Part shown: positions 3,173 through 18,955 of the stretch, piece after piece
Position numbering within the stretch: the first letter of the stretch is position 1
How the letters are laid out: every line of letters starts with the position of its first letter
Source of the DNA: Aurantiacibacter sp. D1-12
GTDB lineage: Bacteria; Pseudomonadota; Alphaproteobacteria; Sphingomonadales; Sphingomonadaceae
Reading direction: 5' to 3'
Assembly (NCBI RefSeq): GCF_028858515.1
Contig: NZ_JAPJZJ010000001.1
Span: forward strand, 310,001 to 374,000
Length of the DNA stretch: 64,000 nt
Made by a program: the position numbers and the translations under genes
Notes under the pieces: generated by a model
The model's database searches: none
What the model saw: the letters and a program-made list of their open reading frames with translations, nothing else
Told to the model about the DNA's origin: nothing

Positions 3173-4084
3173 ATGGACTGTCTCGTTGAAAAAGCGGCGT
3201 TTTCACTTGCTGCGTTCGCTCTCGTTGTTTCTCCGGTGGCTGCACAGGATGACGATGCTTACCGGCTTGCGCCGGCATCGCATTGGCACCTTGATATGGC
3301 GGAAGAGAGCTGCGGTCTCCAACGGGTGTTCGGACAGGAAGGTAACCAGGTTTACCTGCAGCTCCGGCAATATGCGCCGGATGACAGCTTGACCGTCACG
3401 GTTGCCAGTGATGACGTGCGCCAGCGCTCGCGTCTCAGAAATTTCGCTGTCACATTTCTCCCCGACAGCGAAGCAAACGAATCTGTGCGGCCAATGGCGG
3501 TCAGTTCGGATGCATTTGGTGATGGCGTTCTGTTCTCGGCCTCTCTCCTTTCAGCGGAAGACCGGGCTCGACGGGACGAAGCTGACGAGAGCGACGAGCC
3601 TTTCACCGTGCCGGAAGATGCGCGCAATGCCAGAGAGCAGGCCATCGAGAGCGTTTCGATCCGCGGCCAGTTCATGCGTGAGGTCGTGCTTGAAACCGGC
3701 TCGCTGCACCCGGCAATGACAGCAATGCGCGCTTGTATGGATGATCTCGTGGAAAGCTGGGGGATCGATCTGGAAACGGACAGCACTCTCAGCCGCAGGG
3801 TACAGGCAGTCGATATGGATCGCTGGACGCGCCCCATCACCGCCACCTATCCTATCAGGTCAGTGCAGAGGGGGCAGCAGGGCTACATCCGTATCCGTCT
3901 CATGGTGTCCGACGAAGGCCGAGCCACTGATTGTGTTGTTCAATCGGCGTTCAACGATCGCGCGCTGGACGAAGCAGCGTGCGAAGGCTTGCTTCGGCAC
4001 AGCCGTTTTGAGCCTGCACTGGACGCGATGGGTTCTCCGGTCGCAAGCTATTGGACGACCGTGGTCATCTATACGTTAGGATAA
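3173..4084 (+). CDS. Exported protein with C-terminal TonB-like domain
   Basis: Predicted 303-residue exported protein. The ATG at 3173 is preferred over the GTG at 3107 because it places a signal peptide (KAAFSLAAFALVVSPVAAQ) at the N-terminus. The middle, about residues 25-215, is acidic and not recognised. The last 85 or so residues resemble a TonB C-terminal domain: a YP-containing start, then GYIRIRLMVSDEGRATDC and a FEPALD segment, as in proteins annotated 'energy transducer TonB'. There is no N-terminal membrane anchor and no Pro-rich linker, so it is probably not a functional TonB; such stand-alone domains are common in sphingomonads and have no clear role. Confidence 0.72.
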   Translation: MDCLVEKAAFSLAAFALVVSPVAAQDDDAYRLAPASHWHLDMAEESCGLQRVFGQEGNQVYLQLRQYAPDDSLTVTVASDDVRQRSRLRNFAVTFLPDSEANESVRPMAVSSDAFGDGVLFSASLLSAEDRARRDEADESDEPFTVPEDARNAREQAIESVSIRGQFMREVVLETGSLHPAMTAMRACMDDLVESWGIDLETDSTLSRRVQAVDMDRWTRPITATYPIRSVQRGQQGYIRIRLMVSDEGRATDCVVQSAFNDRALDEAACEGLLRHSRFEPALDAMGSPVASYWTTVVIYTLG

Positions 4085-15968: not shown

Positions 15969-16721
15969 ATGGCTGGTGAATTGAAAGACAACCGAGGGCG
16001 GGGTGATGCGGAGTGGGGATTTCCCGCTATCCACCCCGAAGGTCGCAAGTATGGCGTGATCGCGGTCGGCATATCGCTGATTTTTCTGGTCCTTCTCGAT
16101 TGGGAGATCATCGGATGGCCATTGTTGGCGCTTTCGGCAGGCGTTTTTGCCTTCTTCCGTGACCCTGAGCGCGTTGTGCCGCAGGGAGAGAAGGTGATCG
16201 TTTCGCCTGCCGACGGCCTGGTTTCGCTGATTTCGCAGGTCGAGCCGCCCAAGGAGCTGCAAGGACCCGACAGTGACGGGGGCGAAGGCCTCGGCAGCGG
16301 TCCGGTTACACGCATTTCCATTTTCATGTCGGTGTTTGACGTGCACATCAATCGCGCGCCGATTGCGGGAACGGTTAAGCGCATTTTCTATATCCCCGGC
16401 GCCTTCATGAACGCCGATCTCGACAAGGCGAGTGAGGAAAACGAGCGCCAGCACGTGATGATCGAGCGAGCCGACGGTGCGCGTATCGGGTTCACCCAGA
16501 TCGCCGGGCTCGTTGCGCGGCGGATCGTGCCATTCATCAAGCCAGGCGACATAGTGGCATCGGGCCAACGCGTTGGCCTGATCCGTTTTGGCAGCCGCGT
16601 GGACGTCTATCTCCCCGCTGGCACTGATCCGAAAGTCTTGCTCGGCCAGAAGGTGGTCGCGGGTGAGACAGTGCTCGCCGAAATGGGCACACAGGGCTTG
16701 CTCGAGGGCGTTAGCCAGTGA
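15969..16721 (+). CDS. psd: Phosphatidylserine decarboxylase proenzyme
   Basis: Makes phosphatidylethanolamine from phosphatidylserine at the inner membrane. 250 residues, the short type common in alphaproteobacteria. Two hydrophobic segments lie at about 28-60, then FFRDPER, SPADG and [13 protein letters not shown] motifs. The self-cleavage site is [11 protein letters not shown], with Gly208-Ser209; the serine becomes the pyruvoyl group. It overlaps pssA by four bases (GTGA), so substrate maker and user are cotranslated. Confidence 0.96.
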
Positions 16722-17650
16722 ACGGCGACAATCACGACGATCACGATTTCGATGAAGACGCAACCGCTACGCCCGGTCCGGCATGGCTGGGGCCCAAGGC
16801 CAGTGAGGGTGAACACGTAACGCGGTCGCGCGGGGGCAGGGGGCTTTCGGTCCGCGCCGTGGTTCCCAACGCCATTACTGCTGCTGCACTGTGCTCGGGT
16901 CTGACTAGCATCCTGTTTGCTGTCAGCGAGCAATGGGACAAGGCGGTGTTTGCGATGATCATCGCGGGCGTGCTCGATATGATGGACGGCCGCGTGGCGC
17001 GGTTGCTCAAGGCGCAGTCCCGTTTCGGCGCCGAGCTCGATAGCCTCGCAGATTCAGCAAGTTTCGGCATTGCGCCCGCTCTGGTGCTGTATCTGTGGTC
17101 ACTGGTGGACATGCCGCGCTTCGGTTGGCTGGCGGCTTTGGCCTACGCTCTGTGCTGTGCTCTGCGTCTGGCGCGGTTCAATGCCCAGATCGATGTCGAG
17201 GATCAGCCGCATAAATCCGCTGGTTTCCTCACCGGTGTTCCTGCGCCGATGGGGGCGGGCTTCGCCTTTATGCCGGTCTATCTCTGGCTGGCGACCGAGG
17301 AACCGATTTTCCGCGACCCGTTGCTGGTGGGGCCGTGGTTGATCCTCATCGCGTTACTGATGGTGTCCAATATCGCCACACCGAGCTGGAAGTCTCTGCG
17401 ACCGTCGGGTGACCTGAAGCTTGCCGTCATCGCAATGGCAGGCCTGCTTGTAGGTGGACTGATGTTCGAGACGTGGTGGACGCTGACCCTGATCGGTGTG
17501 ATCTATCTTAGCCTGATTGCCTGGACGATCCTGCGCTATCAAAAGGTCAAAAACGAGCGGAAGCTCAAGAACAAAGCGCCAGTGCCCGGACGAAAGCCTC
17601 TTGCGGTTGACGAGGTTGAACGGTCACTGTCCGAGGGGCGCGATCCATAG
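16718..17650 (+). CDS. pssA: CDP-diacylglycerol-serine O-phosphatidyltransferase
   Basis: Integral membrane enzyme making phosphatidylserine; 310 residues. It starts at a GTG that overlaps the psd stop. A hydrophilic, acidic N-terminus of about 45 residues precedes the CDP-alcohol phosphotransferase signature D90-G91, A94-R95, G104, D108 and D112 (in DGRVARLL and [10 protein letters not shown]). Several membrane spans and a basic C-terminal tail follow. The pair psd-pssA supplies the phosphatidylethanolamine branch; cdsA (23 kb) makes its CDP-DAG. Its last 86 bp overlap, antisense, the end of the small membrane-protein gene. Confidence 0.95.
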
Positions 17651-17774
17651 CGGCGAGTTCTGCCCGCACAGCGCGATACTGCCTCGCTGCCTTGCGCAGC
17701 GACGCATGACACACGGCAAACGACACTGCGGCCACCAGACCGAAGAACAGCGAAATTGCAATTGCGAGTGTCAT
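17565..17774 (-). CDS. Small single-span membrane protein, candidate SOS gene
   Basis: 69-residue protein. The ATG at 17772-17774 has a good ribosome site (AAGAGGAAA). Residues 3-23 (LAIAISLFFGLVAAVSFAVC) form one membrane span, followed by a basic, helical then Pro/Gln-containing cytoplasmic tail. I do not recognise the family. Upstream on the same strand lie two LexA boxes, one of them between plausible -35 and -10 elements, so the gene should be repressed by LexA and induced by DNA damage. Small SOS-induced membrane proteins that block division are known in Caulobacter (SidA), which makes this a reasonable hypothesis but not an assignment. The 3' end overlaps pssA antisense. Confidence 0.6.
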   Translation of the reverse strand: MTLAIAISLFFGLVAAVSFAVCHASLRKAARQYRAVRAELAAMDRAPRTVTVQPRQPQEAFVRALALCS

Positions 17775-17848
17775 ATCCGTATTTCCTCTTAGTGCCCCGA
17801 CAGCGCTGTTCGCGGTGATTCGTTCCCGTTGACCCTGCCGATGGGTGG

Positions 17849-17900
17849 TTTGTTCCATCTCTGTTCTCACCCGTCAAGAACTTTTGTTCCACTTGTGTTC
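17849..17900 (-). promoter_or_regulatory. SOS promoter with two LexA boxes
   Basis: Two matches to the alphaproteobacterial LexA site GTTC-N7-GTTC: GTTCCATCTCTGTTC at 17852-17866 and GTTCCACTTGTGTTC at 17886-17900. On the minus strand TTGACG (17872-17877) can serve as -35 and AACAAA (17849-17854) as a weak -10 with a 17-bp spacer; the first box lies between them and the second just upstream. Transcription would run into the small membrane-protein gene, giving a leader of about 70 bases. Confidence 0.7.
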
Positions 17901-18187: not shown

Positions 18188-18955
18188 ATGGCGGCACCTA
18201 CCGTCACCATGCAGCAATTGATCGAGGCCGGCGCACACTTCGGCCACCAGACCCACCGCTGGAACCCGCGGATGAAGCCGTACATCTTCGGCGACCGCAA
18301 CGGCGTTCACATCATCGACCTGTCGCAGACCGTGCCGCTGTTCGCGCGCGCGCTCGACTTCGTGCAGCAGACTGCCCGCGCAGGCGGCAAGGTTCTGTTC
18401 GTCGGCACTAAGCGTCAGGCGCAGGAGCCGATCGCTCAGGCAGCCCGCGCATGTGGCCAGCACTTCGTCAACCACCGCTGGCTGGGCGGCATGCTCACCA
18501 ACTGGAAGACGATTTCGGGTTCGATCAAGGAGCTCAAGAACCTGGAAGAAACGCTTTCGGGCGACACCAGCCTTCTCACCAAGAAGGAAGTTCTTCAGCT
18601 GACGCGCAAGAAGGACAAGCTGGAACTGTCGCTGGGCGGCATCCGCGATATGGGCGGCGTTCCGGACGTGATGTTCGTGATCGATGCCAACAAGGAAGAT
18701 CTCGCGATCAAGGAAGCCAACGTGCTTGGCATTCCCGTGATTGCCGTGCTCGACACCAATGTCGATCCGGAAGGCATCGCTTTCCCGATCCCCGGTAATG
18801 ATGATGCCAGCCGCGCTGTGCGTCTCTACTGCGACGCCGTGGCTCAGGCCGCGACGAAGGGTTCGGGTGACGGCGTAGTGGACTCGGGTGCTGACATCGG
18901 CGCGATGGACACTCCTCCGGTAGAAGCTACTGCTGAAGAAGCTCCGGCTGCCTGA
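18188..18955 (+). CDS. rpsB: 30S ribosomal protein S2
   Basis: 255-residue ribosomal protein S2. The N-terminus [22 protein letters not shown] (positions 10-31, shown in part: [17 protein letters not shown]) and [13 protein letters not shown] are diagnostic, as is [13 protein letters not shown]. The C-terminal tail after about residue 225 is acidic and Ala-rich, a common extension. It heads the order rpsB-tsf and then, past a convergent gene, pyrH-frr, which is conserved in most bacteria. Confidence 0.98.

Follow-up and report, generated by a model that had tools for sequence, protein, structure and literature searches.

We identified a gene for a small membrane protein, between pssA and rpsB of Sphingomonadaceae, that is very probably under SOS (LexA) control, judged by the conservation of its operator. 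The gene lies in a 64-kb stretch of Aurantiacibacter DNA (here called the window, meaning the whole stretch that was analysed), for which it had been proposed that SOS regulates a small single-span protein not described before. Conservation in relatives strongly supports that proposal. By analogy with SidA and YneA, we regard the product, at about even chances, as an SOS-induced, unstable inner-membrane effector that probably acts as a brake on division.

The small gene and its LexA boxes in the window

Features of the locus are collected in Table 1. The two flanking genes are, we presume from their sequence, pssA and rpsB; the PssA of the window is 75-84% identical to Aurantiacibacter PssA proteins among the top matches listed. 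The original prediction had described a 69-residue single-span protein with a ribosome-binding site, and this description was borne out by the ATG, the AGAGGA and a single 19-residue hydrophobic stretch that begins at residue 3 and has a mean hydropathy of 2.55. Behind the membrane helix come a basic helix, predicted to be cytoplasmic, and a short tail. The protein ends in -ALCS, without Ala-Ala, and the 3' 86 bp of its gene overlap the 3' end of pssA. Terminator-like sites numbered 5 in 1051 bp, both strands included, against 1.0 expected.

Table 1. Positions of the features of the locus, numbered from the first nucleotide of the window.
Feature	Position	Strand	Remark
Small membrane-protein gene, 69 codons	17565..17774	-	ATG start; relatives at the equivalent place
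Ribosome-binding site AGAGGA	17784..17789	-	9 nt 5' of the ATG of the 69-codon gene
pssA (CDP-diacylglycerol-serine O-phosphatidyltransferase)	16718..17650	+	Convergent to the 69-codon gene
rpsB	18188..18955	+	Divergent from the 69-codon gene
Weak terminator-like hairpin with T run	17554..17567	-	At the stop codon of the 69-codon gene
Inner LexA box GTTCCATCTCTGTTC	17852..17866	+	Between TTGACG and the presumed -10; position conserved
Outer LexA box GTTCCACTTGTGTTC	17886..17900	+	Just 5' of TTGACG on the gene strand
-35 element TTGACG	17872..17877	-	Immediately 5' of the inner box, read along the gene
Presumed -10 AACAAA, 17-nt spacing, weak by consensus	17849..17854	-	Read by eye

Two GTTC-N7-GTTC boxes were found as claimed, with their starts 34 bp apart. 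The further claim that one of them sits between a -35 and a -10 element held in part: the TTGACG is in place, but the -10 is poor by consensus, and a sigma-70 consensus promoter scan found no promoter at the window locus. Support for this weak -10 comes from the conservation of the promoter in relatives. The number of boxes in the window is by itself not remarkable and could be given by chance, with 3 boxes against 1.67 expected in 64 kb and 24 of 100 shuffles reaching 3; the third box, at 3938, lies inside a 325-aa frame. When the window was resampled 300 times by a first-order model, two boxes on the same strand with starts within 40 bp arose once. We regard conservation in relatives, rather than these box statistics, as decisive for the reality of the boxes.

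GTTC-N7-GTTC as the SOS operator of the genome

The exact pattern occurs at 59 places genome-wide, compared with 74 for a reversed control pattern, so most genome-wide matches are chance. We read the neighbouring ORFs in 20 stretches, chosen by eye and covering 22 of the other box places, and carried out a family scan on 10 proteins whose genes have a box in front of them. RecA, LexA, RadA, a PA0069 radical SAM protein and a ribonucleotide reductase alpha chain scored over the curated cut-offs. UvrA and a UvrD/PcrA helicase gave strong matches that were incomplete in the stretch and therefore under the full-length cut-off, while an RmuC-like protein and two DNA-polymerase-IV-like proteins were below cut-off. 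Several further box places had, by eye, no SOS-like neighbour. The presence of recA and lexA among its targets identifies the motif as this genome's SOS operator. The small gene has what is expected of a member of the alphaproteobacterial LexA regulon, namely a GTTC-N7-GTTC operator that overlaps its promoter and is the same as the operator at recA, lexA and uvrA.

Two of the box places drew attention on their own account. At one (L173, G000:C4:465888), the box stands directly 5' of a radical SAM gene of the PA0069 family, which would be an unusual target of SOS control. At the other (L177, G000:C5:451373), a box one base off the outer box of the window stands 5' of an nrdA-like gene for the ribonucleotide reductase alpha chain.

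Conservation at loci chosen by pssA

Eighty loci, mostly from Erythrobacteraceae, were chosen by PssA alone and without regard to the small gene, as the best 80 of at least 489 confirmed. A gap of at most 1.5 kb between pssA and rpsB left 78 of the 80 testable (L102 and L114, with gaps over 1.5 kb, were dropped). Conservation of the boxes alongside the gene had been set beforehand as the first half of the refutation test, the other half being induction by DNA damage, and the prediction passed this first half: GTTC-N7-GTTC boxes lie between pssA and rpsB at every one of the 78 testable loci. The spacer was seven nucleotides in 127 boxes, with spacers of 4, 5, 6, 8, 9 and 10 found 1-7 times each, and the opposite box orientation occurred at one of the 78 loci. 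An iterated profile found the small ORF in 74 of them, and in the remaining four, all Croceicoccus, reading by eye shows an ORF that starts with a hydrophobic part and ends in AAA.

These four (L069, L073, L086, L091) form a variant in which the hydrophobic N-terminal part differs, an LLFDLLPVLR segment is common to all and the AAA end is kept. They were left out of the protein-feature, omega, leader and folding analyses because the profile chose the wrong frame.

On the strand of the small gene, 76 of the 78 loci have a TTGAC no more than 14 nt 5' of a box (43 of 44 loci with a single box, 33 of 34 with several), and the promoter consensus of the 44 single-box loci reads CTTGACag...gGAACAAAtaGgGAACAttg. 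In the direction of rpsB, a TTGAC beside a box was found at 0 of the 78 loci. This polarity bears on a reading in which the boxes would serve translation shut-down in SOS through rpsB-tsf, with the small ORF being incidental. The boxes are indeed close enough to rpsB to raise it, at about 290-340 bp 5' of the gene in the window and about 145-205 bp in many of the profile-negative genomes described below, but the promoter points the other way and the small ORF is itself under selection, and we find the rpsB-tsf reading hardly credible.

Distribution in Sphingomonadaceae

The number of family genomes with a match depended strongly on the query: a single sequence matched 7 of 199, a 6-sequence profile 43, and a 63-sequence profile (A3) 99. 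This rise shows that much of the apparent absence is divergence. Matches to rpsB came from 196 genomes, and their positions were listed for 150 of them. The position test covered 92 profile-positive genomes; the other seven of the 99 (G012, G057, G089, G110, G117, G134, G181), with weak matches, were left out, and in G183 the rpsB-adjacent match was used instead of the best match. In 88 of the 92, the profile match was on the strand opposite to rpsB and 215-1292 bp 5' of it, with two more lying elsewhere and two having no listed rpsB. Where boxes were checked in profile-positive genomes, they were present at 27 of 28 syntenic loci and at 30 of 30 loci, in two sets that overlap.

We read 61 loci directly, consisting of 60 with a listed rpsB but no kept match and one with a distant match. 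At 44 of them, a box precedes a short ORF whose N-terminal part contains a membrane stretch (41 with pssA within 900 bp, 3 without). Two had pssA but no exact box, and their one-mismatch near-boxes may be chance matches; three had a box but no ORF by script, and inspection by eye gave a candidate ORF in two of these three, L166 and L201. The other 12 had neither a nearby pssA nor a box nor the ORF, and these include L152 (732 bp) and L202 (363 bp), both ended by contig ends. Adding the two counts (88 + 44), about 132 of the 150 Sphingomonadaceae genomes with a listed rpsB have a gene of this type close to it, where the count for profile-negative genomes needs a box and judges the membrane stretch rather than homology. 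Box and gene are absent in 12 of the 16 profile-negative loci without pssA near rpsB, so the small gene can be lost or moved.

At four loci the gene lies 0.6-4 kb from rpsB, as a box and ORF in L207, L214 and L217 and as a profile match in L235 (G151), which suggests insertions between the small gene and rpsB. L234, L235, L236 and L238 were left out of the locus analysis. The double operator of the window recurs in eight profile-negative genomes (L158, L160, L164, L197, L199, L210, L220, L232), with two boxes 21-126 bp apart.

At class level, a profile (A4) run on 289 genomes gave five matches at E <=1e-3, four of them within the family. The fifth lies inside a 998-aa frame (E 8.7e-4) and was taken as chance. 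Absence of the gene outside the family is only suggested by this result, since the profile misses divergent members even within the family.

Coding, topology and family matches of the small protein

That the small ORF is truly coding is well supported by its pattern of substitution. In 13 of 14 close pairs, picked by eye, omega lay between 0.12 and 0.51, pointing to purifying selection; the one exception, at 1.16, was based on very few changes. Over the first 45 codons, which are mostly outside the pssA overlap, the summed pS was 0.37 and the summed pN 0.13.

The 75 proteins from the window and the PssA-chosen loci are 65-111 aa long, and all 75 have a hydrophobic 19-mer near the N-terminus. 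Lys and Arg are distributed asymmetrically around it, with 0 before the membrane stretch and 10.7 on average after it, and by the positive-inside rule the tail would be cytoplasmic. An orientation with the N-terminus out and the basic C-terminal part in the cytoplasm is thus likely. AlphaFold2 with A3 predicted a helix over residues 2-45 and a short helix over residues 58-68 (pTM 0.49), with a block of pLDDT 96-98 over residues 1-40. Mean column identity of A3 is 23%, and at this divergence no partner-binding surface is evident.

Family models did not recognise the protein. In Pfam, the best of five proteins reached 14.9 bits against a cut-off of 28, and 22 proteins gave a single, unconvincing match (E 0.034). 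NCBIfam gave none for five proteins and no convincing match for 63, the best (E 0.0033) being in 2 of the 63. LapA_dom and DUF1127 were considered as a Pfam identity and rejected, their matches being far below cut-off.

The C-terminal Ala-Ala and the overlap with pssA

Most of the proteins end in Ala-Ala: 61 of the 75 members (~81%), and 37 of 44 in profile-negative genomes. The same ending occurs in 26 of 518 ORFs of at least 150 codons from the PssA-chosen loci and box stretches (repeated orthologues included), and in 3 of 48 in the window. Fourteen of the 75 members lack it; the near relatives of the window protein end in -TA or -CPA.

The AA end is antisense to codons of PssA, most often V/I-K/R-R-Q-R, so that PssA could have caused it. 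Codon choice in the overlap disfavours PssA constraint as the sole cause. At 37 loci where PssA reads K/R-R-Q, we compared the arginine codons with 1246 Arg outside the overlap. The first Arg was AGG in 20 of 20 (70 of 1246 outside), and the second was CGG in 36 of 37 (346 of 1246 outside), counts that are not independent events because the loci share ancestry. In both cases the codon used is the one that preserves AAA-stop in the small gene. The AAA end is also retained where PssA reads RRP, RRL, RQQ or KQR. At several Aurantiacibacter-like loci, LAA or MAA persists although the PssA codons there are different. On the other side, AAA is not retained where PssA has KTQ, KSQ, KRE, RRD or RRA. 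We take this pattern to indicate that the AAA end of the small protein is under selection. The available part of a study of Caulobacter CdnL describes two terminal alanines as a ClpXP degron (PMC11034885), and by this analogy the terminal -AA probably acts as a ClpXP-like degron in the members that have it.

If the transcript rather than the protein were the active product, it would be LexA-controlled and antisense to pssA, and phospholipid synthesis would fall in SOS through repression of pssA, with the protein secondary. The small ORF and pssA are in fact convergent at 78 of 78 loci, where they overlap by 17-152 nt. An antisense role is nevertheless opposed by the purifying selection that acts on the protein, by a codon choice in the overlap that serves the protein, and by the weak terminator-like hairpin that the window has at the stop codon. 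It is also opposed by the loci that have box and ORF but no pssA within 900 bp of rpsB, namely L207 (999 bp), L217 (946 bp) and L214, where pssA was not found in the stretch. We consider antisense control of pssA very unlikely.

A selected C-terminus also bears on the comparison with membrane peptides of the TisB/DinQ type, which would alter membrane potential or slow metabolism in SOS without inhibiting the divisome. The single hydrophobic helix, the small size and the LexA-type operator would all suit such a peptide. TisB is controlled by antisense RNA, and neither TisB nor DinQ is known to have a long cytoplasmic tail, such as is predicted for the sphingomonad protein. DinQ is, in the available text of PMC3567139, an SOS-regulated single-span peptide under antisense RNA control, and SOS-type control and a small, hydrophobic product are what the sphingomonad gene has in common with TisB and DinQ as far as these sources describe them. 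In our judgement, a sizeable part after the membrane stretch with a predicted helix and a selected end exceeds what a pore peptide needs, and makes this reading unlikely.

A candidate SOS division inhibitor

SOS division inhibitors have been found lineage by lineage and are mostly unrelated to each other. Sphingomonadaceae, bacteria living in soil and water, are a large, environmentally important family in which SulA was not found and for which our literature search met no described inhibitor. The unstable SulA shares the role that we propose, that of an SOS division inhibitor; none of 99 Sphingomonadaceae genomes (that of the window and 98 others) gave a match to its family (PF03846) above the cut-off, with an E. 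coli control positive, and the one sub-threshold match reached 22.4 bits against a cut-off of 23.1. The Pfam scan of the small protein gave no SulA match above cut-off either. SulA is given as the FtsZ inhibitor of gamma-proteobacteria in the available part of PMC4211646.

By prediction, the protein follows the plan of the SOS membrane inhibitors SidA, YneA and SosA, being short, single-pass and under an SOS operator. Division inhibition, for which the analogy to SidA is plausible, is our leading reading, and we hold it with about half confidence. In this mechanism, LexA bound to the box between -35 and -10 would shut the promoter, and RecA-triggered cleavage of LexA would free it. The protein would then enter the inner membrane in the orientation predicted by the positive-inside rule, the N-terminus outside and the basic C-terminal part facing the cytoplasm, and would most likely bind a membrane divisome protein (FtsW/FtsI/FtsN-like), delaying septation. 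The C-terminal -Ala-Ala of most members would expose it to ClpXP or a similar protease, and the block would lift once induction ends, its action being limited in time by the proposed degradation after synthesis stops. A block of septal synthesis is the documented action that we met for small SOS-induced membrane proteins.

The same parts could also build a membrane-anchored adaptor or regulator of some other SOS-time process, such as a protease adaptor or a regulator of an envelope or phospholipid enzyme, for example PssA. A cytoplasmic tail with a terminal AA could pass a partner to ClpXP, and the psd-pssA neighbourhood is near-constant. No partner is known, however, and the small SOS-induced membrane proteins named in the available part of PMC4211646 are division inhibitors, which leaves the adaptor quite unlikely.

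Among known division inhibitors, SidA of Caulobacter crescentus is a LexA-controlled small inner-membrane protein of 29 aa that acts through FtsW, according to the same partial text (PMC4211646). The sphingomonad protein resembles it in LexA-type control, in being, by prediction, a small inner-membrane protein and in its alphaproteobacterial host, but differs in its length of 65-111 aa, its predicted cytoplasmic helix and its frequent C-terminal -AA. DidA is described there as SOS-independent, induced by DriD and acting through FtsN (PMC4211646). With 71 aa, one predicted membrane helix and an ORF that overlaps the C-terminus of an annotated neighbour ORF, DidA as described is similar in plan, whereas the sphingomonad gene is under a LexA-type operator. 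YneA and SosA have extracytoplasmic C-terminal parts, unlike the predicted cytoplasmic C-terminus with a ClpXP-type end of the sphingomonad protein. YneA is also said to be the substrate of the proteolysis that allows checkpoint recovery in Bacillus. In the portions of the literature available, YneA (Bacillus) and SosA (Staphylococcus) are SOS-induced membrane division inhibitors, and recovery from the Bacillus checkpoint is by proteolysis (PMC6051672).

Novelty of the small gene is provisional: no description of it was found in a search of the open literature, outside of which subscription papers mostly lay. The short length of the gene, its overlap with pssA and its rapid divergence may let it escape annotation. 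A LexA regulog that covers this order may exist in RegPrecise. In the nearest study met, on Sphingopyxis granuli, lexA, recA, radA, dinG and imuAB-dnaE2 rise in anoxia, and the small gene is absent from the selected-gene table in the available part of that study (PMC6472365), which counts against our reading. The finding supplies a locus, a conserved operator and a candidate degron in many culturable species.

Leader sites that resemble DnaA boxes

RNA structure was not supported as the cause of leader conservation: nine chosen leaders gave z from -3.4 to +0.9 against mononucleotide shuffles, with one below -2. Sites with at most one mismatch to the DnaA-box-like 9-mer TTATCCACA number 33 in 30 of 74 leaders, 11 of them exact, compared with 0.4 expected by mononucleotide shuffling, a figure not corrected for shared ancestry. 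In total, 62 such sites occur in 979 kb (both strands of the loci), the leader sites included. None was seen in the window leader.

A wider and doubtful extension of the division-inhibitor reading would see an SOS division checkpoint of the whole of Sphingomonadaceae, unrelated to SulA, SidA, DidA or YneA and self-limiting via a degron encoded in the pssA overlap, which in many Erythrobacteraceae would also be tied to replication by the DnaA-box-like 9-mers. If this were true, one small membrane protein would read both DNA damage and replication state. The leader sites themselves lie between the box and the start codon (L078, L083, L084, L085, L095, L103 and others), and in several loci they follow one another in 11-bp steps.
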